Positions 21,797 to 32,398 of a DNA stretch of 64,000 nucleotides are shown piece after piece (position 1 is the stretch's first letter; the number at the start of each line of letters is the position of its first letter). The position numbers and the translations under genes are program-made. This DNA comes from Bdellovibrio sp. BCCA (GTDB lineage: Bacteria; Bdellovibrionota; Bdellovibrionia; Bdellovibrionales; Bdellovibrionaceae). Below the pieces are notes generated by a model. The model saw nothing but the letters and a program-made list of their open reading frames with translations. It ran no database searches and was not told where the DNA came from. The stretch lies in contig NZ_JBBNAC010000001.1 of the NCBI RefSeq assembly GCF_037996825.1, positions 1,178,001 through 1,242,000 of the forward strand, read 5' to 3'.

Positions 21797-22915
21797 ATGG
21801 CTCAAAGAGACTACTACGATATTTTAGGCGTACCCAAAGATGCAGAACAAGATGCGATCAAAAAAGCGTATCGCAAATTGGCCATGCAATTTCATCCGGA
21901 TAAAAATCCGGGGAATAAGGAAGCCGAAGAAAAATTCAAAGAAGCTGCTGGAGCTTACGAAGTTTTAAGTGATCCACAAAAACGCGCGCAGTACGATCGC
22001 TTCGGTCACGATGCATTCACCGGTCGCGGTGGTGGAGGCGCAGGCTTCCAAGATGTTGACGATATTTTCGCACACTTTGGCGATATCTTCGGGGATTTCT
22101 TTGGCGGAGGTATGGGTGGTCAACAAAGACAACGCCGCAATCGCAATGAGCCTCGTCGTGGTTCTGATCTTCGCTACGTCACTGAAGTGACATTGAAAGA
22201 AGTCATCACAGGTCTTGAAAAAGAAATTGAATTCGACACAGAGAAAAACTGCGATGATTGCAAAGGCACGGGCGCAGAAAAAGGTTCGCAAGTTGTGACC
22301 TGTACAATGTGCGGAGGCTCAGGCCAAGTCGTGCGCTCGCAAGGTTTTTTTGCGATGGCATCAACGTGCCCGCAGTGTCACGGCCAAGGCACACAGATTA
22401 AAAATCCATGTAAGTCATGCAAAGGCAAAGGCCGCGTGAACGAACATCGTAAGATCCGTCTTAACATTCCTGCTGGAGTCGACACAGGCACACGCCTTCG
22501 TGTTGCGACAGAAGGTGAGGGTGGATACATGGGAGGTCCTCCAGGGGATCTTTATGTTGAGATTCGTGTGAAACCTCATTCGCACTTTGAACGTCGTGGA
22601 GATGATCTCTTCGCAGAACTTTCTGTGCCATATGTACAAATGTTGTTAGGTGCAGAGATTGAAGTCCCAACTGTCACAGGCAAAGCGAATTTGGAAATTC
22701 CAAAGGGTGCGCATCCTGCGGACAATGTAAAACTTCAAGGTGAGGGTTTACCATCACTACGTGGAAATCGTCGCGGCGATATTTATTTCCATATCAACGT
22801 GCAGTTCCCAGATAAGCTCAATAAAGATGAAGAAAAACTTCTCCGCGACATCGCAAAATCTCGCGGTCTAAAAGTCGCGCCTGAGGGCGGTGGCTTTTTT
22901 GGACGGAAGAAGTAG
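21797..22915 (+). CDS. dnaJ: Chaperone protein DnaJ
   Basis: 372 residues from ATG 21797 (product [12 protein letters not shown], as in the family). J-domain with HPD ([16 protein letters not shown]), a Gly/Phe-rich linker, four zinc-binding repeats ([32 protein letters not shown]), then two beta-rich substrate domains. A type-I Hsp40 that stimulates DnaK. dnaK lies 7.6 kb downstream in the same direction with accessory genes between. A weak GGAAA/TTTCC hairpin (22928-22943) follows the stop, without a T-run. Confidence 0.97.
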
Positions 22916-23021
22916 AGTCATGCGATAGGAAAGTCCAGTTTCCACTAAGTAATGCAAAAGCAGATGACATAAATCTCCCATAAATTAACAATTAGTTGTT
23001 TATCATTATAGGAGTAACCAA

Positions 23022-26000
23022 ATGAAGTCTGTTTTACGTTGTACAGCCTTTTTCTTATTCTTTACCTATCCCTTAGCTCTTTTTGCGCAAATTACGTGTG
23101 AACAATACCGTGCTGAGTATATTAAGTGGGTACAGGATGGCAGCTGTTCTGCAGATGCGGGATGCCAGGAAGGGTCTTACTGGAGATCCTGCATAAGTTA
23201 CTCTGGCGTCAGTGTGACTTCCGCAGAAAATAATAGCGAAAAGATATCTTGCGTGGGAACTCAGGTTTATGACACTTGGGATGATGACCCAGCCCCTCCA
23301 GATGTTCCTCCTACTCATGATGTTTCTCATTGGGTTGTGGAATACTATATAGGCAGATGTAATACTCAACCTCCTCCACCAAGTAACCCGCCGTCTGGCC
23401 CAAGTTCGTCAAGTGGTCCTCCTGGTTCGTGTCCGATTAAAGGTTCTATCGTGCATTTGGAAGACCGCTCTTTATCTGAGAGTGTGCCTATTGTTGGAGC
23501 GCCTTTTTCATTATTTTACCACTCTTCATTTCAAGAGGGACGAACGGCAAATTTTAAAATCAAAATAGATATTTCGGGTGATGAGCCTCGAGACTATATT
23601 CAATCATTTGTGGTTGAGAACCGTAGGAATGGCGTCCTTGTTGATACCGTAACGTATCCAACTTCGTCGGCAAATCAAAATTATTCATACATTTGGAATG
23701 GTATGGATGCTTCAAATACCACTAAAGTGCCTTCCGCGAAATTTAGTGTAGCGATAAATGAAACTTCTCCTGTTGGAACATTTCCTGTGTTGCATGAGAT
23801 CACTCTAGCACATTTTAGCGCCAAAGGTATCGGTCTTGGAGGATGGTTGCCAAGTATTTTAAAAAGGTATGATCCGCTTGCAATGAGAATGTATTCTGCT
23901 GAGGGTGGGTTTACAGAAGTTGAGGCAAAACCTATTGATTTAACCTATCTGTATGTTCCAAGTAGTTCAGGAAATGAAGTTTATATATTTGATGCTACAG
24001 GAAGGCATATTCAAACGCGAACTGGATTGACAGGCGCTACAATCTTCTCATTTAACTATGACGTGAATGGATACTTGATTTCTATTTCTCAACCTTTTGG
24101 GAGAACTACATTTTTTAACCGCAACCTCAGCGGAAAAATAGTTTCTATTACGTCACCGAAAGGTCAAATAACGACCATCGGTCTGGATACTAACGACTAT
24201 ATTTCTTCAATAAAAAATCCAAATAATGAGACCTACAACTTTACTTACTATGGAATAGGTGGGCTCCTTTATACATTTCAAAAACCTCGCGGCGAACTCA
24301 GTAGTTTTTACTACGATACCGAGGGATATATAGTAAAAGATGAGCACTCTGGCGGGTATTTTTTTGATCTAGTAAAAGGTATAAATTTCGGGGTTGGCTC
24401 TGATGTAACGGTAACTTCTTCCATGGGCAGGACGGTTAACGTTCAAACTACAGTAGGGTCTGAATCAATAAACAGAAATATTTTCTCTTCTTCAGGACTA
24501 AACACTTCATCTTCCTATACGAAGCAAGGTTCGGAGTACAATCGTTACGATGTAATGCCAGGATACTCTAGAATGGCCTTATCCTCTGACGACAAGCGTT
24601 TTGGAAAAGGAGTTAGATTTGTACAGAACGAAACGCTCTCTATAAATGGAGCGGGCAGTAGGCAAAATACCAGCACCCAGGATATAACCTTAAACGATAC
24701 AAATGACCCTTTTTCTGTTTCATCTTGGTTATTTGAGTCACAACTTAGTGGTACAAATACAAAGGTGAGCACAAGTTATGATCCAATTACTAAAACCTTC
24801 ACTTCCACTACATATTTAAATCGAACGACGGAAGTGAAAATTGATTCTTATGAGCGAGTGACATCCTGGAAAAAAGGGAGTTTAAATGCTGTATTATTCA
24901 ACTATAGCAGTGAAAATTTAGCTTCTATTTCTCAAGGGTCCCGTACAACCACGCTTGATTATAACACTACATCTGGCTTTCTTGAAAGCATCACAAGTCC
25001 ATTGAATCAGGCAACAACCTTTGTATACAATAATGCGGGACGAGTTACTTCAAAGATACTTCCAGATTCAAGAGTCATAGGTTTCGGCTACGATGCCAAC
25101 GGAAATGTCACAAGCGTAACTCCTCCAGGAAAACCCGCACATGTATTCGGAATCAACGCTCACGAGGTTGTCGGTTCTTATGAACCGCCGACATTAAGTG
25201 GAGTTTCTGTAGTCAACACAACCTATCAATACAATCTCGATAAACAACTTACCCAGATCACGAGACCTGATGGGGCTACGATTGATTTTAATTACGGATT
25301 AACAACGGGTGTTTTAGAAAGCTTCGTAACTCCTGACGGAACTTACACTCAAACCATGGATACAACGAACGGATTGCCATCAACAATCTATCAACCAGAT
25401 AATTCGTGGACATCAATTTCCTATGCTGGAACAAGCATGATTGGTTCTACGAACTACGATTCATCTTCGTCAATGATCGGAAGTTATGCTCCGACATTCT
25501 CAAGTGTCGCATTGGTGGAGTCTGATACAGTGACAAACAGTATTGGAACAACATCAACGATTTCTTACCAATACAACGACGACGAAGACCTCAAAAAAGC
25601 AGGAGACGTCACTCTCACGTACAACACACCTAACGGCCAACTCACTGGCACAAGTATGGGCTCTGGGACTTCTGCGATCACAGACGCGTATACATACAAC
25701 AACTACGGCGAAGTCACTGATTACGTAGCTAAACGAGGCACAACGACGATCTACAGTTTAACACTTGCTCGTGATGCTTCAGGGCGCATCAACGGAAAAA
25801 CTCAAACGATGAACGGTACGACGGATGCCTATGATTATACGTTTGACGTTACGGGCAGACTGACAGAGACCAAGAAAAATACGGCGACAGTTGCGACTTA
25901 CAACTATGACTCCAACAGCAACCGCAATGGAGGAACGATTGGCGCTCAACCAACGTCTGCGACATATGACGACCAAGATCGTCTTCTAACTTACAACACG

Positions 26001-27005
26001 TTATCGTTCACATATAATGCTAACGGAGATCTCGCGAGTAAAACCAACAATACTCTTAGTCAGACCACTCAGTACACATACGACGTCTTCGGCAATTTGA
26101 AACAAGTGCAACTGCCAAGTGGAACCGTGATTACTTATGAAGTCGATGCTCTTAACAGACGCATCGGCAAAAGAGTAAATGGAGTCCTGCAAAGACGTTG
26201 GGTCTATATGGATCAGTACCGCATCGCTGCGGAACTTAATGCTTCCGGAGCCATCACGAAACGTTTCGTCTATGGTTCAAAATCTAATATTCCGGATTAC
26301 ATGATCATGGGAAGCACAAAATACAGAATCATTTCTGATCATTTGGGTTCTCCAAGACTTGTTGTGAAAATGTCTGACGGTTCCATTGCGCAAAGAATGG
26401 ACCACGATGAGTTCGGCCGAGTCACGGTGAACACAAGCGCGGATTTCACTCCGTTTGGTTTTGCGGGAGGTCTTTACGATCAGCAAACTGGATTGGTGAG
26501 ATTTGGCGCGAGGGATTATGATCCGGAGACTGGTCGGTGGACAAGCAAAGATCCGATCTTGTTCAAAGGGGGAGATGTCAACATCTTTGGGTATGTGCAA
26601 AATGATCCGGTTAACTTTGTAGATCCTATTGGTCTTTGGTCTATTCAAGCGTCTATTTTTACCGGCGCGGGAGGTTCTATTACAATTGGAGCAGACAATA
26701 GTTCTGGAAGACCGTTTATCACTCTTAGATTTGGTTATGGAATAGGTGTCGGTGCCTCATATGATGAAAAAGGGTCATCACCGGTACCCCAATGTCCTCA
26801 AAACGGTCCTAATGCTTCTATAGGTTTGTATGGTGATGCATCTGTGACTAACGGACCTCACGAGGTTGGAGTTTCTGGAGGAGGGGGGGTATCTTCCAAG
26901 AGAAGCGCACCGTACTATCTGTATTCCAGTCCAACTAATACACTAGGAACATCTATGGGTGTTGGAGGTGGTGCTTCCGTAGGAGTTGAGTTATCTTTTT
27001 TCTAA
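23022..27005 (+). CDS. Secreted RHS/YD-repeat protein
   Basis: 1327 residues. Signal peptide (MKSVLRCTAFFLFFTYPLALFAQ), a Cys-rich N-terminal region (about 25-115), a Pro/Ser-rich linker, then RHS shell and many YD repeats (YDANGNVTSV, YDVFGNLKQVQ). The core closes with FGARDYDPETGRWTSKDPI and a DPIGL motif near residue 1200. After DPIGL about 120 residues are Gly- and beta-rich (GYGIGVGASYDEKG, GVGGGASVGVELSFF) with no nuclease or protease motif; similar tails recur in other RHS proteins and do not look toxic. Codon use is AT-richer (many ATA) before about 25.0 kb and in the tail than in the 25.0-26.6 kb core, suggesting a mosaic. AGGAG precedes the ATG. Confidence 0.9.
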   Translation: MKSVLRCTAFFLFFTYPLALFAQITCEQYRAEYIKWVQDGSCSADAGCQEGSYWRSCISYSGVSVTSAENNSEKISCVGTQVYDTWDDDPAPPDVPPTHDVSHWVVEYYIGRCNTQPPPPSNPPSGPSSSSGPPGSCPIKGSIVHLEDRSLSESVPIVGAPFSLFYHSSFQEGRTANFKIKIDISGDEPRDYIQSFVVENRRNGVLVDTVTYPTSSANQNYSYIWNGMDASNTTKVPSAKFSVAINETSPVGTFPVLHEITLAHFSAKGIGLGGWLPSILKRYDPLAMRMYSAEGGFTEVEAKPIDLTYLYVPSSSGNEVYIFDATGRHIQTRTGLTGATIFSFNYDVNGYLISISQPFGRTTFFNRNLSGKIVSITSPKGQITTIGLDTNDYISSIKNPNNETYNFTYYGIGGLLYTFQKPRGELSSFYYDTEGYIVKDEHSGGYFFDLVKGINFGVGSDVTVTSSMGRTVNVQTTVGSESINRNIFSSSGLNTSSSYTKQGSEYNRYDVMPGYSRMALSSDDKRFGKGVRFVQNETLSINGAGSRQNTSTQDITLNDTNDPFSVSSWLFESQLSGTNTKVSTSYDPITKTFTSTTYLNRTTEVKIDSYERVTSWKKGSLNAVLFNYSSENLASISQGSRTTTLDYNTTSGFLESITSPLNQATTFVYNNAGRVTSKILPDSRVIGFGYDANGNVTSVTPPGKPAHVFGINAHEVVGSYEPPTLSGVSVVNTTYQYNLDKQLTQITRPDGATIDFNYGLTTGVLESFVTPDGTYTQTMDTTNGLPSTIYQPDNSWTSISYAGTSMIGSTNYDSSSSMIGSYAPTFSSVALVESDTVTNSIGTTSTISYQYNDDEDLKKAGDVTLTYNTPNGQLTGTSMGSGTSAITDAYTYNNYGEVTDYVAKRGTTTIYSLTLARDASGRINGKTQTMNGTTDAYDYTFDVTGRLTETKKNTATVATYNYDSNSNRNGGTIGAQPTSATYDDQDRLLTYNTLSFTYNANGDLASKTNNTLSQTTQYTYDVFGNLKQVQLPSGTVITYEVDALNRRIGKRVNGVLQRRWVYMDQYRIAAELNASGAITKRFVYGSKSNIPDYMIMGSTKYRIISDHLGSPRLVVKMSDGSIAQRMDHDEFGRVTVNTSADFTPFGFAGGLYDQQTGLVRFGARDYDPETGRWTSKDPILFKGGDVNIFGYVQNDPVNFVDPIGLWSIQASIFTGAGGSITIGADNSSGRPFITLRFGYGIGVGASYDEKGSSPVPQCPQNGPNASIGLYGDASVTNGPHEVGVSGGGGVSSKRSAPYYLYSSPTNTLGTSMGVGGGASVGVELSFF

Positions 27006-27015
27006 TGGATAAAAA

Positions 27016-27360
27016 ATGAAGAAATTGATCATTACGGTCGCTTTGTTGGTAGTCTTTTTTGCAGAATTTCATCTGTTGGTCGCGAATTCAGATGGAGTTG
27101 ATGTTGCATCGAAATATTTAAGAGATAATTCGGAAGTGAGAAAAGTGGTCGGAGCAGTTTCTAAAACTAGCTTAATACCTTTGGCTTCCGAATTAAAAGA
27201 TTATGGTAGAGAGGGAAGCGCTACGTATCATATTAAAATTATTGGTACTAATGGAGCTGCGGAGGGTATTGTTACGTCGATCAAGACCGATGGAATGTGG
27301 AAGGTAGATAAGGCACATCTTCTTCTGGAGGACAAGGATATCATTATCCTGAAACAATAG
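27016..27360 (+). CDS. Small membrane-anchored Coa1-like protein
   Basis: 114 residues: an N-terminal membrane segment (4-20) and a soluble alpha/beta domain whose end (SATYHIKIIGTNGAAEGIVTSIKTDG, then MWKVDKAHL) resembles the cytochrome oxidase assembly factor Coa1 fold (strand-turn-strand, 'G.W.v..a.l'). This fold often occurs in small anchored proteins of unknown role. Its start is 10 nt after the RHS stop, so both are probably co-transcribed; an immunity role is conceivable but the RHS tail does not look toxic. The ribosome site is weak. Confidence 0.65.
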   Translation: MKKLIITVALLVVFFAEFHLLVANSDGVDVASKYLRDNSEVRKVVGAVSKTSLIPLASELKDYGREGSATYHIKIIGTNGAAEGIVTSIKTDGMWKVDKAHLLLEDKDIIILKQ

Positions 27361-27413
27361 ACGATGGAGCTTGTGCGAACAAGGCTATAGTTACCCTTTA
27401 AACAGAGGATCTC

Positions 27414-27665
27414 ATGGATAAATGGCTTTATGGTTATTGGTTTAAGTCAAAAAAGAAGACCTTCGGTTGGGGGTGGACGATTGTGCCAAACACCCCTCAA
27501 GGATACGTCACTTGGGCAATTGCTGTTATCTGTTTCTTCTTAATCAATTTTCCTGAGATTATCTCGCTCGTTCCGCAGAATGAAGTGATGATTGTATCAG
27601 GGGCTTTGCTTGCAGTTACAACTCTGATAACATTTTTAAAAACAGATCTCAGGGAAGATCCCTGA
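27414..27665 (+). CDS. Small two-helix membrane protein
   Basis: 83 residues. A tryptophan-rich start (MDKWLYGYWFKSKKKTFGWGW), then two hydrophobic segments (about 33-48 and 59-76) and an acidic end. AGAGGA six nt before the ATG. I do not recognise a family. It follows the Coa1-like gene by 53 nt in the same direction and so belongs to the RHS patch by position. Confidence 0.6.
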   Translation: MDKWLYGYWFKSKKKTFGWGWTIVPNTPQGYVTWAIAVICFFLINFPEIISLVPQNEVMIVSGALLAVTTLITFLKTDLREDP

Positions 27666-27967
27666 TGAAATATGAATAGTGATATTTTTAAATCTTCCTC
27701 GTTAATTCAATTTGTAATGAAAATTTCTCTTGGCGGTGATTACTCAAGCTTTTGTTCCGCCTCCATTAAAAGATTTTTCTTCCCGAAAGACCCTTCTCGT
27801 TTCTGAAATAAAGTCCTCTTTAAAAGCTTACCCGAAACAATAAAACATCTTTTATCAAACAACTCCAGCCTCCGTTCCTCCGTCTAAAAACCGCAAATTT
27901 CACTCGAAAAAAACCGTGGTATGTTACTTCCACCGTGGCAGTGATTGTGTTTTGAACCGGAGGAAAA
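27666..27967. other. 302-bp spacer between the RHS patch and the HNH gene
   Basis: No convincing gene. A 29-codon frame at 27717-27806 lacks a ribosome site. The stretch is AT-rich with pyrimidine-rich tracts. Its right end holds one arm of a 23-nt inverted repeat (27924-27946) whose partner is inside the HNH gene, and the GGAGG ribosome site of that gene. Confidence 0.6.
27924..27946 (+). repeat. Left arm of a 23-nt inverted repeat around the HNH gene
   Basis: The arm TTACTTCCACCGTGGCAGTG plus ATT is the reverse complement of 28645-28667 with one central mismatch (22 of 23). It lies 21 bp upstream of the HNH start codon. Confidence 0.75.
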
Positions 27968-28900
27968 ATGAATCTTAAACTTTTAAATAAAATGGAATTG
28001 GATCAACGAATCAAATCCTTGGTTGGGAAAGAACGTGAGTTGCTTCACGAAATTCTTCTTACGATCAAAGAAATAGACCAGCGTAAACTTTATTTGGAAT
28101 TTGGGTTTGCCAACTTATTTTTATATTTGGTTGATGGTGTTGGATATTCTGCCGGGAGTGCACAACGTCGTATTGATGCTGCAAGGCTATTAAATGAAGT
28201 TCCCTCTTTAGGTGAAAAAATTCAGTCCGGGGAAGTAAAGCTTCATCAAGTCTCTTTAATCCAAAAAGCGGCGCGCGATATTTATAAAACCACACATAAA
28301 AAAGTGACTGCTGAAGAAAAGAAAGAAATCTTAGAGCAAATCACTTCGAAGAACTTTCAAGAATCCCAAAAGGAAATAGCTTCGTTCTTTGATTTACCTG
28401 TGGTTGAAGTAACAACTCAAACTGTTCAGGCGGATGAAAGCGTTCGTCTGTCTTTAACAATTTCCAAAGAATTGGCCGAGAAAATTCAACAAGCGCAAGC
28501 TCTTTTATCTCATGCTCTTTCTTCTAATGACATCGTGGATTACATTACCTATGTGACGGACCGGGTGATTAAGCAGAAGACTTCAGTAAAAAATCGAGCC
28601 GAAGAAGGTGATGCGAGCAGCACCAACAATGTATACGAACCAAAAATCACTGCCACCGTGGAAGTAAAACCGTTTTCCCCGAGAACTAAGAAAATACTTA
28701 TAAATAAAGATCAATGTTGCCAGTACAAAGATCCGATGACGGGAAGACAGTGTCGCAGCCGATGGTTTTTGCAAACCGATCACAAACAAAGTCGGTGGGC
28801 TCATGGAATCAGTACTATTGAAAATGCTCAGCTTCTTTGTGCTCAGCATAATCGCCTTAAATATCGGCAGGAAGCCGGACTTAAATATATTTCGCGGTAA
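27968..28900 (+). CDS. HNH endonuclease (DUF222-like N-terminus)
   Basis: 310 residues. The N-terminal 200 residues are helical (DQRIKSLVGKERELLHEILL, YLVDGVGYSAGSAQRRIDAA), like the helical domain found before many HNH nucleases. The C-terminal domain reads CQYKDPMTGRQCRSRWFLQTDH, then HGISTIENAQLLCAQHNRLK, giving the His-Asn-His order plus paired cysteines for zinc. A nicking or cutting enzyme of unknown target. GGAGG lies six nt before the ATG. The right arm of a 23-nt inverted repeat is inside the coding sequence just before the HNH domain. I recall multiple copies of such genes in Bdellovibrio genomes, but cannot verify it here. Confidence 0.85.
   Translation: MNLKLLNKMELDQRIKSLVGKERELLHEILLTIKEIDQRKLYLEFGFANLFLYLVDGVGYSAGSAQRRIDAARLLNEVPSLGEKIQSGEVKLHQVSLIQKAARDIYKTTHKKVTAEEKKEILEQITSKNFQESQKEIASFFDLPVVEVTTQTVQADESVRLSLTISKELAEKIQQAQALLSHALSSNDIVDYITYVTDRVIKQKTSVKNRAEEGDASSTNNVYEPKITATVEVKPFSPRTKKILINKDQCCQYKDPMTGRQCRSRWFLQTDHKQSRWAHGISTIENAQLLCAQHNRLKYRQEAGLKYISR
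28645..28667 (-). repeat. Right arm of the 23-nt inverted repeat, inside the HNH gene
   Basis: AATCACTGCCACCGTGGAAG plus TAA, reverse complement of 27924-27946 with one mismatch. It encodes residues about 226-234, in the linker just before the HNH domain. Confidence 0.75.
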
Positions 28901-29001
28901 ATGAAGTCGAATGGTCGAGACCCGGATACTAATATGCGGGAACTCGATTTCGGCATTGTGAAAAGCTGGCACGAAACAAGCTAGGCAATCCTCCAAAAGG
29001 A

Positions 29002-29035
29002 TTGACAAAATGATATACACTCAATTAAGGTATAT
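29002..29035 (+). promoter_or_regulatory. Promoter/operator region of the TumE/TumA-like pair
   Basis: TTGACA at 29002-29007 and an inverted repeat ATATAC (29013-29018) / GTATAT (29030-29035) lie directly before the first gene. No good -10 sits at standard spacing from this TTGACA. Autorepression by the HTH partner is expected of such modules. Confidence 0.4.
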
Positions 29036-29038
29036 GTG

Positions 29039-29353
29039 ATGCCGGCGGCTAGGATTCTTTACGATGAAAAAGTAAAGCTGCTAGACGGACGTTATGAGGC
29101 TCGAATAGTGGCTTACGAAGTTTCCAAGAGCAAAAAGTTTCCGGACGGTATTAAGCTCAGTTGTGTTCTTTTGGATACGGAGGAAAAAGTCCCTAGGCTG
29201 TTGTTGGATAATCACGAGCCTTATGGATACCATCTTCATACAAAGCTGCCTCATGACAAATCGTACAGGATTAGCGTTGATGTTAAAAATTATGAAGAAG
29301 CCATCGAATTCTTTATGCAAGCGGCTTCAGAGGTGATTGAAAATGAAAGCTAA
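29039..29353 (+). CDS. TumE/DUF6516-like toxin
   Basis: 104 residues from ATG 29039; a GTG one codon earlier is also possible. AAGG lies 8 nt before the ATG. The second half LLLDNHEPYGYHLHTK, then RISVDVKNYEEAIEFF, matches what I know of DUF6516 (TumE) proteins: 'yDN...gHH.H', then a strand and a helix ending the protein. These are the toxin half of a two-gene module with an HVO_A0114-type HTH protein, exactly what follows here with an 11-bp overlap. Activity is unverified. Confidence 0.6.
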   Translation: MPAARILYDEKVKLLDGRYEARIVAYEVSKSKKFPDGIKLSCVLLDTEEKVPRLLLDNHEPYGYHLHTKLPHDKSYRISVDVKNYEEAIEFFMQAASEVIENES

Positions 29354-29753
29354 AAATCAAATGGTGATTGTTTTTAAGTCTCTGGAAGATTTAGGACGTG
29401 ATGCTATCAAAGCTATCAAGACCAAAGCGGCTAAGGTGCAGCCTGCAAATGTGGTATATTTTGATAGCTGGACTTCATTTCGTAATTTTATGTCACTGCA
29501 AAAGCTTGAAATTTTAACTATGATTTCAAGCGTTGAGCCAAAGTCGATTTATGAATTGACTCGACTTCTTGAGCGCAGCCTTTCAGCGGTGCAAAAGGAT
29601 TGTGAGTCGTTGGAACAGGCGGGCTTTATAACTCTTGAGAAGCAAAAAACAGGTCGCGGCCAAGTCGTGCCGCGATTAAAGTTTAAATACGACAAAATAG
29701 TCGTCCGCCTTCCGCAACATCCATACGAGTTAATCTTTAAAGCGGCAGCCTAA
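29343..29753 (+). CDS. TumA/HVO_A0114-like winged-helix antitoxin
   Basis: 136 residues from ATG 29343 (AGAGGTG about 8 nt upstream; a TTG two codons earlier is less likely). The order matches HVO_A0114-family proteins: FDSWTSFRNFMSLQKLEILTMI, then PKSIYELTRLLERSLSAVQKDCESL (winged helix) and GFITLEK with a basic wing, ending in a strand (KIVVRLP). It overlaps the toxin-like gene by 11 bp, so both are made together. It probably binds the inverted repeat upstream of the pair. Here the toxin-like gene comes first. Confidence 0.65.
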   Translation: MKAKNQMVIVFKSLEDLGRDAIKAIKTKAAKVQPANVVYFDSWTSFRNFMSLQKLEILTMISSVEPKSIYELTRLLERSLSAVQKDCESLEQAGFITLEKQKTGRGQVVPRLKFKYDKIVVRLPQHPYELIFKAAA

Positions 29754-29765
29754 AGGGCAGAGATC

Positions 29766-30086
29766 CTACCCACCACGCTTCTTATTGTGTTTCGCGCGAT
29801 GAATATTATGACTTGCGCGATCCTGCATTTTCTCCAGATGTGCTTTCTCTTTCTTTGAGACATCTCCATCAGCGGCGGCTTTGTTTTCTGCTGCGTTGAT
29901 GCGTTCTTGCTGCTTCTCAAGGCGGGCCGCTTCTTTTTCTGTCAGCGAACCGGATTTTTCTCCTTGTTCGATGCGTTTTTCCTGGCGGGCGGCACGTTTT
30001 TCTTCGCGGGTTTCGGCTTGCGCGAGTGTGAAGATCACAAGGGAGGAGGCGATGATGGCGGCCATTTTCAAAGTCAAATGAGTCAT
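29766..30086 (-). CDS. Small secreted charged protein with two helical repeats
   Basis: 106 residues from ATG 30084-30086: AAGGA then has six nt of spacing, whereas the ATG two codons earlier would touch the ribosome site. Signal peptide ending LAQA. The mature part is almost all helix and highly charged, with two related units, RIEQGEKSGSLTEKEAARLE and RINAAENKAAADGDVSKKEK, and a basic His/Lys tail. I have seen this repeat in small periplasmic proteins of many Proteobacteria, without known function. It converges on the antitoxin-like gene. Confidence 0.7.
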   Translation of the reverse strand: MTHLTLKMAAIIASSLVIFTLAQAETREEKRAARQEKRIEQGEKSGSLTEKEAARLEKQQERINAAENKAAADGDVSKKEKAHLEKMQDRASHNIHRAKHNKKRGG

Positions 30087-30205
30087 ATTCATTCCTTTCT
30101 GAAAGGTTCTGCATGTTCACCCACAAATAGGATACGCCGGGCTCATGAAAACGACATTAGAATCAGATTTAAATTTTTTAATTTCACTGCCTCAAAACAA
30201 GGCAG

Positions 30206-30314
30206 TTAGGCTCTAGAAAAATTGAGGCCCCGGCGTTGAAGGGTTTGCGCCGAGGCCTAGAGGGGCTTAAATGTTTGGGTATTTAAGAGAGGAGCGAGGA
30301 CCCATAATGCCTAA
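30206..30314. ncRNA. Candidate structured RNA in the spacer upstream of dnaK
   Basis: The 382-bp spacer 30093-30475 is not empty. It contains ACTGCCT/AGGCAGT (30186-30192/30200-30206); a strong hairpin AGGCC-C-CGGCG (30225-30235) with CGCCG-A-GGCCT (30248-30258); TTAAAT/ATTTAA (30267-30272/30281-30286); and an enclosing TTAGGC/GCCTAA (30206-30211/30309-30314). Together they can fold as a junction closed by the outer pair. It does not match 6S, SRP, RNase P or any riboswitch I can recall. No terminator T-run was found, so strand and ends are unknown. Confidence 0.35.
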
Positions 30315-30398
30315 GGGTGCCTGATAACACGAGTTAAATAGCTGTAAGATGCTGAAATTATTCATTAAAATATTGTCATAAAAAAAGAACTGCGCTAG

Positions 30399-30426
30399 CT
30401 TGACGAAACTGAACAAGGCCCCACAT
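30399..30426 (+). promoter_or_regulatory. Sigma-32 (RpoH) type heat-shock promoter of dnaK
   Basis: CTTGAC (30399-30404), 14 nt, CCCCACAT (30419-30426), against the E. coli consensus CTTGAA-N13..15-CCCCATnT. It lies 50 nt before the dnaK ATG, which has AAGGAG. Confidence 0.65.
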
Positions 30427-30475
30427 TTAAAGTGCTAAATGCAGTTAAATTCATGGAAGTTAAGGAGATTTTGGT

Positions 30476-32398
30476 ATGGGTAAAATAATTGGTATCGACT
30501 TAGGAACGACGAACTCGTGCGTTGCGATTATGGAGGGCGGTGAGCCTAAAGTTCTCGTGAACGAAGAGGGCGCTCGTACCACTCCTTCAGTTGTCGCATA
30601 CACCAAAGATGGTGATCGTTTGGTCGGTCAAATTGCCAAACGTCAAGCTGTGACGAATCCGGAGAACACAATCTACTCTGCGAAACGTTTCATCGGTCGC
30701 AGATTTGAAGAAGTTCAAGAAGAAATCAAACTTGTTCCTTACACTGTTGTCGCTAAAGGCAATGACTGTGCATTCAAGGTACAAGGTAAAAACGTGTCTC
30801 CAGAAGAGATCGGTGCAGCGGTTCTAGCTAAACTTAAAAAAGTGGCTGAGGACTATTTGGGTGAGCCGGTAACTGAAGCAGTTGTGACAGTTCCAGCTTA
30901 CTTCAACGATGCGCAAAGACAGGCAACGAAAGATGCCGGTCGTATCGCGGGTCTTGATGTAAAACGTATTATCAACGAACCAACAGCAGCCGCGCTTGCT
31001 TACGGTCTTGATAAAAAGAAAGATGAAAAAATCGTGATCTACGACTTCGGGGGAGGAACGTTCGATGTATCTATCCTTGAAGTAGGCGACGGCGTTGTCG
31101 AAGTTCGCGCTACAAACGGTGATACTCACTTGGGTGGTGATAACTTCGATACAGTGATCTTGGAATGGTTGATTACAGAGTTCAAAAAAGATCAGGGTAT
31201 TGATCTTAAGAACGACAAAATGGCTTTGCAACGCTTGAAAGAGGCGGCAGAGAAGGCGAAAATCGAACTTTCTTCTGCGCAAGAAACTGAAATCAACTTG
31301 CCGTTCATCACGGCAGATCAATCAGGTCCGAAACATTTGCAAACGAGATTGTCTCGCGCAAAATTCGATCAAATGACAGAAGACCTAGTAAAACGCTCTA
31401 TGGAGCCTTGCCGTAAAGCTTTGGCTGATGCGGGTATCAAGTCTTCAGAAATCGATGAAGTGGTTCTAGTCGGTGGTTCGACTCGTATCCCTGCGATCCA
31501 AAAAGCAGTGAAAGACTTCTTCGGTAAAGAGCCAAACCGCACAGTGAACCCAGATGAAGTTGTGGCAGTGGGTGCCGCAGTTCAAGGTGGTGTCTTGGCC
31601 GGTGAAGTGAAAGATGTGTTGTTGCTAGACGTAACTCCACTCAGCCTTGGTATCGAGACTTTGGGTGGCGTGATGACGACATTGATCGAGAGAAATACAG
31701 CGATTCCTACTAAGAAATCACAAGTGTTCTCGACAGCGGCCGACAACCAACCCGCAGTGGACATCCACGTTCTTCAAGGTGAGCGTAAGATGGCTTCTGA
31801 TAACAAAACTTTGGGACGCTTTGAGCTTGTAGGTCTTCCTCCAGCTCCACGTGGTGTGCCTCAAGTTGAGGTGACATTCGATATCGATGCCAACGGTATC
31901 TTGCATGTAAATGCAAAAGACATGTCATCTGGTAAGTCTCAACAGATCAAGATCACGGCGCAATCAGGTCTTTCTGAAGAAGAGATCAAGCGCGCAGTGA
32001 ACGATGCTGAAGGACATGCTGAAGAAGATAAACGTAAAGCAGAAGCGGCAACACAAAGAAACAACCTCGACAACTTGGTTTACCAAACTGAGAAGTTGAT
32101 CAAAGATTCAGGCGCTCAACTTCCTGAAGCTGAGGTGAAATCTGCGAACGACGCGATTGCTGATGCGAAAAAAGTTCTTGAGAACAAAGCCGCTGAAGCG
32201 GATGAACTCAAGTCAAACTTTGAGAAGTTGCAAGCGATCACTCACAAATTGACGTCTGAGCTTTACAAAAAGCAAGGCGCTCAAGGTGAAGCAGGTGGCG
32301 GCGACGGCAGCGGTGGTGGTCAACAGTCAGGCGGCGAATCGTCTTCTGAAAACAAAGGCGACGATGTGATCGACGCTGACTACAAAGACGTAAACTAA
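30476..32398 (+). CDS. dnaK: Chaperone protein DnaK (Hsp70)
   Basis: 640 residues, normal length. Nucleotide-binding domain with [13 protein letters not shown], the [13 protein letters not shown] phosphate loop and [13 protein letters not shown]; substrate domain with [16 protein letters not shown]; helical lid; and a Gly/Ser-rich tail ending in an acidic [12 protein letters not shown], the conserved end that aids clients and partners. Acts with DnaJ (at 21.8 kb) and GrpE (not seen here). A sigma-32-like promoter precedes it and an intrinsic terminator follows, so it is a single-gene transcript. Confidence 0.98.

Follow-up and report, generated by a model that had tools for sequence, protein, structure and literature searches.

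Why should a gene for a putative nuclease carry the same short sequence twice, once in front of its start codon and once, turned around, within its own reading frame? This question is raised by a DUF222-HNH gene in the 64,000-nucleotide stretch of DNA analysed here (the window), from the predatory bacterium Bdellovibrio sp. BCCA. The first-pass annotation had noticed a 23-nt inverted repeat at this gene, considered it most unlikely to be there by chance, and read it either as a phase switch, in which inversion would cut off the nuclease domain, or as a pair of recognition sites of the nuclease itself, used for self-limitation or homing.

A DUF222-HNH gene and its two dyads

The repeat proved to be as described. 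Its arms, TTACTTCCACCGTGGCAGTGATT at 27924-27946 and AATCACTGCCACCGTGGAAGTAA at 28645-28667, are complementary at 22 of 23 positions and stand 698 nt apart; on the gene map, the first ends 21 nt ahead of the ATG at 27968, and the second codes for ITATVEV in the linker that precedes the HNH domain. By simple arithmetic, about 4e-6 inverted pairs of 23-mers with at most one mismatch are expected in 2.8 kb and about 2e-3 in 64 kb. Each arm is itself a 17-bp odd dyad, ACTNCCACNGTGGNAGT (ACTtCCAC-C-GTGGcAGT), so that the arms match in direct orientation as well and the true unit is the dyad rather than the inverted pair. This motif is present exactly twice in the window, in the following setting:

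27926..27942, no strand assigned: upstream dyad ACTTCCACCGTGGCAGT, core of the arm 27924-27946, ending 25 bp ahead of the start codon
27968..28900, plus strand: DUF222-HNH gene, 310 amino acids
28025..28399, plus strand: predicted ParB/Noc/KorB-like helical DNA-binding domain, residues 20-144 (AlphaFold2, pLDDT about 90)
28649..28665, no strand assigned: linker dyad ACTGCCACCGTGGAAGT, core of the arm 28645-28667, coding for TATVEV at the end of the linker with pLDDT <50
28667..28885, plus strand: HNH nuclease domain, residues 234-306 (Pfam profile and structural matches)

The rest of the 4.0-Mb genome (G000) holds three further copies that differ at one position at most, making only five near copies in all. 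Two of them, one upstream and one in the linker, belong to a broken paralogue (L012; G000:C1:2956876-2957600, minus strand), where they take the same two positions as in the window gene. This paralogue, whose protein pieces are 78-89% identical, has kept both dyads and reads as two ORFs because about 50 codons are missing from its middle (roughly residues 108-159). The third copy is an exact dyad inside TTCACTGCCACCGTGGAAGTGAA (L011, 1786-1802; G000:C1:1411285) that overlaps the stop codon of a gene for a GNAT-like acetyltransferase and lies between convergent genes.

The window protein passes the Pfam cut-off for DUF222 (PF02720; 27 bits against 24.4). Its score for HNH (PF01844; 17 bits) is under the cut-off of 21.4, which the homologue L040 exceeds, and the HNH assignment is also backed by fold matches and by the conserved D-H...H-N residues; residues 232-306 match the HNH nucleases EcoKMcrA, Gme HNH and Cap5 in structural comparison. 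The AlphaFold2 model (mean pLDDT 77) consists of a confident helical N-terminal part, a linker and the HNH domain, with linker residues 206-232 disordered (pLDDT <50). For residues 20-144, the top 11 structural matches all belong to the ParB family (ParB, Noc, Spo0J; Foldseek matches, VIA-align), the best with a Z of up to 9.0 and 2.5 A over 101 residues, which is moderate for a helical domain; KorB on its operator is also among the matches, which include complexes with palindromic DNA. A sequence match to the ParB superfamily was not found and, given also the moderate Z, we hold the ParB-like fold to be a good lead, not proof. The findings as a whole suggest a function for DUF222, the recognition of palindromes of a given sequence by a domain with a ParB-like fold. 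NCBIfam contained no family for the window protein, Rfam had none at the dyads (only rRNA and tRNA in the vicinity), a promoter scan of the window gave no sigma-70-like match upstream of the gene, and searches for phage and plasmid relatives had no match.

The gene lies between dnaJ and dnaK (22915-30476), an interval that also holds a gene for an RHS/YD-repeat protein (23022-27005), small genes and an HVO_A0114 pair, and that looks like an insertion-prone spot. The pair, located just downstream of the HNH gene at 29036-29753, consists of two overlapping genes, one for a protein of 105 aa that has no counterpart in Pfam and the other for an HVO_A0114 (PF25212) DNA-binding protein, and is perhaps toxin-antitoxin-like.

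Paired dyads and selection on the linker copy

The genus and family samples comprised one genome per species, some of them fragmented MAGs. Genus relatives of the gene with at least 50% identity (clade A) came from G003, G006, G010, G014, G015, G016, G017, G021 and G023. At 12 of the 13 clade-A loci examined, there is an upstream dyad and a second one, which lies in the linker or, where the gene is DUF222-only, at its end; no upstream dyad was seen near L038, nor near the divergent type-A genes L188, L194 and L197. The first-pass annotation had named, as speaking against its reading, an arm that homologues contain only as ordinary coding sequence, never upstream; this is not what was observed. 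Their distance to the start codon ranges from 42 to 581 bp and is often large, being within about 100 bp in the window gene, its paralogue and G015. The linker dyad codes for TATVAV, TATVEV, TATVAA or near variants. One locus (L033) has a third, downstream copy, and another (L049) has diverged dyads upstream and downstream and none in the linker.

A second subfamily, B, which includes the own-genome genes L020 and L022, many G009 genes and G022, has at the same place in the linker a different palindrome with the core CCGATGCGG, coding for TTDAVV and variants; its arms are decayed in L020 and L022. Several B genes have this core upstream as well, turned the other way and embedded in a longer motif like TGACA-N4/5-GAGCTA-CCGATGCGG; these upstream copies, with their short arms, are incomplete palindromes. 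Paired sites whose sequence is specific to the subfamily are a plain observation. Across the family, 29 of 68 members have no linker dyad, and on the tree the dyad type is strongly clustered (6 changes, versus 26.7 when shuffled); type A appears at several separate points. Longer palindromes with conserved flanks (TTTCCCGCTC..GAGCGGGAAACAGC; TTTCCTGGCCACGACGGCCAGGAAACAGCC) adjoin four own-genome DUF222-HNH paralogues, at -491 of L022, -406 of L024, -500 of L025, and -314 of L026 as well as 18 bp past its stop; they are maybe another repeat family or terminators.

The symmetry of the linker dyad is under selection at the DNA level. In the 45 codons before the HNH domain, 31 of 68 distinct genes have an exact palindrome with arms of at least 7 bp; synonymous shuffles would lead one to expect 4.6 such genes, and control windows gave 1-3. 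When 24 type-A and 15 type-B linker dyads were aligned, 259 of 273 arm cells were paired, versus 19-37% in shifted windows, and T-A/C-G changes were compensated (Fisher p 0.0014), with two-sided replacements such as ACT..AGT by ACC..GGT and ACCACC..GGTGGT by ATTGCC..GGCAAT. Among 17 divergent type-A genes, the codon GCC is invariant and valine, where present, is always encoded by GTG, while outside the motif the top codon of a degenerate column reaches 0.71 at best. The dyad is placed 15-45 residues from the HNH domain, in or beside the region with pLDDT <50.

Dispersal, edges and breakpoints

In some relatives, the dyad has spread through the genome like a selfish repeat. The stricter pattern with one mismatch allowed matched 30 times in G003 and 44 times in G006 (reversed pattern, 1 and 2), and the looser pattern 32 and 43 times (reversed pattern, none). 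In the fetched loci of these two genomes, 63 of 74 copies are intergenic, often in arrays, and 29 copies carry on one side a tail, AAGC-N4-GCGTYA, that also accompanies the linker dyads of the genes in both genomes. Arrays at L090, L100 and L102 (G003/G006) are situated just past 5S rRNA genes and near contig ends. Dispersal is linked to the presence of the gene: the dyad was found in 10 of 10 genus genomes with a clade-A gene and, as a single match, in 4 of 14 others (about 5e-4, hypergeometric arithmetic). In the family, a perfect dyad was present in 14 of 66 genomes and its reversed control in none, and G065 had 24 dyad copies along with 13 DUF222-HNH matches.

Dyads also coincide with the left edge of gene copies that are dispersed and with the breakpoints of those that are rearranged. 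The Bdellovibrionaceae MAG ND5_Bin_38_1 contains 11 dispersed paralogues, 80-87% identical and with unrelated flanks. What they have in common is a block that begins at about -210 to -260 and runs to near the gene end; in most of them, its left end has ACTGCCA-n-TGGCRGT-like sequence with a variable centre. In G017, two DUF222-only genes have a dyad on each side, with unrelated sequence after the right dyad; an HNH-only fragment in this genome has a frame that runs through TATVAV and no DUF222 sequence ahead of it, just as a deletion between the arms of the repeat would leave it. At a place where two dyads stand 38 bp apart in G003, G006 has a single hybrid one, ACCGCC..GGAAGT, and the segments that differ between L091 and L106 and between L083 and L108 end at dyads. 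Such dyad-bounded deletions can also result from replication slippage between the 9-bp cores. No site cleanly lacking a single inserted dyad was found: in the one clear test, L092 was 96% identical throughout in the other species and aligned in both, L111 was a rearranged site with a decayed dyad, and at the window locus the left flank could not be aligned within the genus.

A nuclease gene and its probable target

We favour the reading, to which we give a probability of about 0.55, that this nuclease gene is mobile or selfish and brings along copies of the dyad that its product recognizes. The dyad is probably what the DUF222-HNH protein binds and cuts, because related genes across the family show such a pairing too, with palindromes of other sequence. 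The N-terminal ParB-like (DUF222) domain would bind the 17-bp dyad as a dimer and the HNH domain would cut at or near it. One dyad lies at the left edge of the element or close to it; the other is within the reading frame, where its position, the model and the codon use show it to occupy a disordered linker, at little cost to the protein. Cuts at dyads, followed by repair, could have dispersed dyads to intergenic sites in some genomes; the same cutting and repair could delete or join the segments between dyads and so leave the DUF222-only and HNH-only remnants that are seen. In the lineage of the window, where the upstream dyad is close to the start codon, it may double as an operator that limits expression. 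The reading of the arms as the nuclease's own sites, made in the first-pass annotation, thus agrees well with the comparative data (paired, subfamily-specific and dispersed dyads), while its binding and cutting part is an inference.

The main rival is autoregulation through two operators, in which a ParB-like protein would bind the upstream and intragenic dyads, by looping or as a roadblock, without any cutting, and dispersal and breakpoints would have other causes. The predicted ParB/KorB-like fold suits such a role, one upstream and one intragenic site make a classic looping arrangement, and in the window, the paralogue and G015 the upstream dyad is about 100 bp or less from the start. On the other hand, the 42 to 581 bp spread of that distance leaves many dyads far from a start, dozens of intergenic copies lie away from the gene, and dyads occur at the edges of remnants. 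We regard autoregulation alone as unlikely, although it may coexist with the nuclease reading. Slightly less probable still is that the dyad is a REP-like palindrome spread by another enzyme, such as a RAYT, or an RNA hairpin, and that the HNH gene does no more than tolerate its copies. Of 10 genomes tested, 9 encode Y1 transposases of the RAYT type, the copies are mainly intergenic, and REPs that lack a dedicated transposase are known (PMC3733652). But the four RAYT loci examined were all without a dyad, and dyad counts do not track RAYT number (1 RAYT and 43 dyads in G006; 12 RAYTs and 3 dyads in G016), so RAYTs, though present, were rejected as the mobilizer; nor would passive insertion account for two sites per HNH gene, for subfamily-specific dyads or for the symmetry that is kept.

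The phase switch by inversion between the arms, which the arm geometry in the window had suggested, now seems very improbable. All intact homologues examined keep the DUF222 part in the same orientation, with no inverted copy among them; the arms are self-symmetric, so their orientation carries little information; no recombinase was noticed among the neighbouring genes; and the rearrangements that were seen are deletions or joins. The nuclease domain has indeed been cut off in the course of evolution, as the DUF222-only and HNH-only remnants at dyads attest, but through deletion, not inversion. The least credible view, that the linker dyad is a by-product of the TATVAV peptide, conserved in clade A, and the upstream copy a coincidence, is rejected strongly by the synonymous shuffles and also by codon invariance, and it sits ill with the compensated changes, the disordered linker at a variable distance from HNH and the recurring upstream partners.

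Returning to the proposed mobile nuclease gene with its own dyad, several known systems offer partial parallels. As in REP/REPIN systems with RAYT (REPtrons), a nuclease gene stands beside short palindromes that are dispersed, mostly in intergenic regions and often clustered with alternating variants; this dispersal is found in the relatives, while the window genome has few copies. Unlike those systems, the palindrome-flanked gene encodes not a Y1 HUH transposase but a DUF222-HNH protein, the palindrome lies within the enzyme's coding sequence, and it is a 17-bp odd palindrome, with the AAGC-N4-GCGTYA tail on the 29 G003 and G006 copies and no GTAG tag. Free-standing HNH homing endonucleases are mobile HNH genes with a presumed long specific site, as the window gene would be, but they normally spare their own allele, whereas here the putative site is kept inside and beside the gene. 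In Rickettsia palindromic elements, palindromes are also found within protein-coding genes; the intragenic site described here differs in being confined to one place in one gene family, with a matching site upstream of the same gene. ParB, Noc and KorB bind 13-16 bp palindromes as dimers, and the N-terminal domain of the window protein resembles them in predicted fold; unlike them, it is fused to HNH, has no CTPase part that we could see and gave no sequence match. Similar in domain content are the REP13E12 repeats of mycobacteria, which combine Pfam DUF222 with a C-terminal HNH and occur in multiple copies per genome, and we know of no cognate dyad system in the DUF222/13E12 repeat family. 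Our literature search on DUF222, REP13E12 and Bdellovibrio palindromes found nothing that describes a dyad-nuclease pairing.

It is tempting, though at somewhat less than even odds, to see here a new nuclease-repeat partnership, in which a ParB-like-HNH gene holds its cognate dyad in its own code and at its edge, the dyad spreads in a REP-like manner, and protein and dyad co-diverge into subfamilies whose domains can be separated or swapped at the dyad. A family of nuclease genes is tied to a family of palindromes by where they lie, by the genomes in which they are present and by changes specific to the subfamily, and this linkage makes a direct test of binding and cleavage possible.
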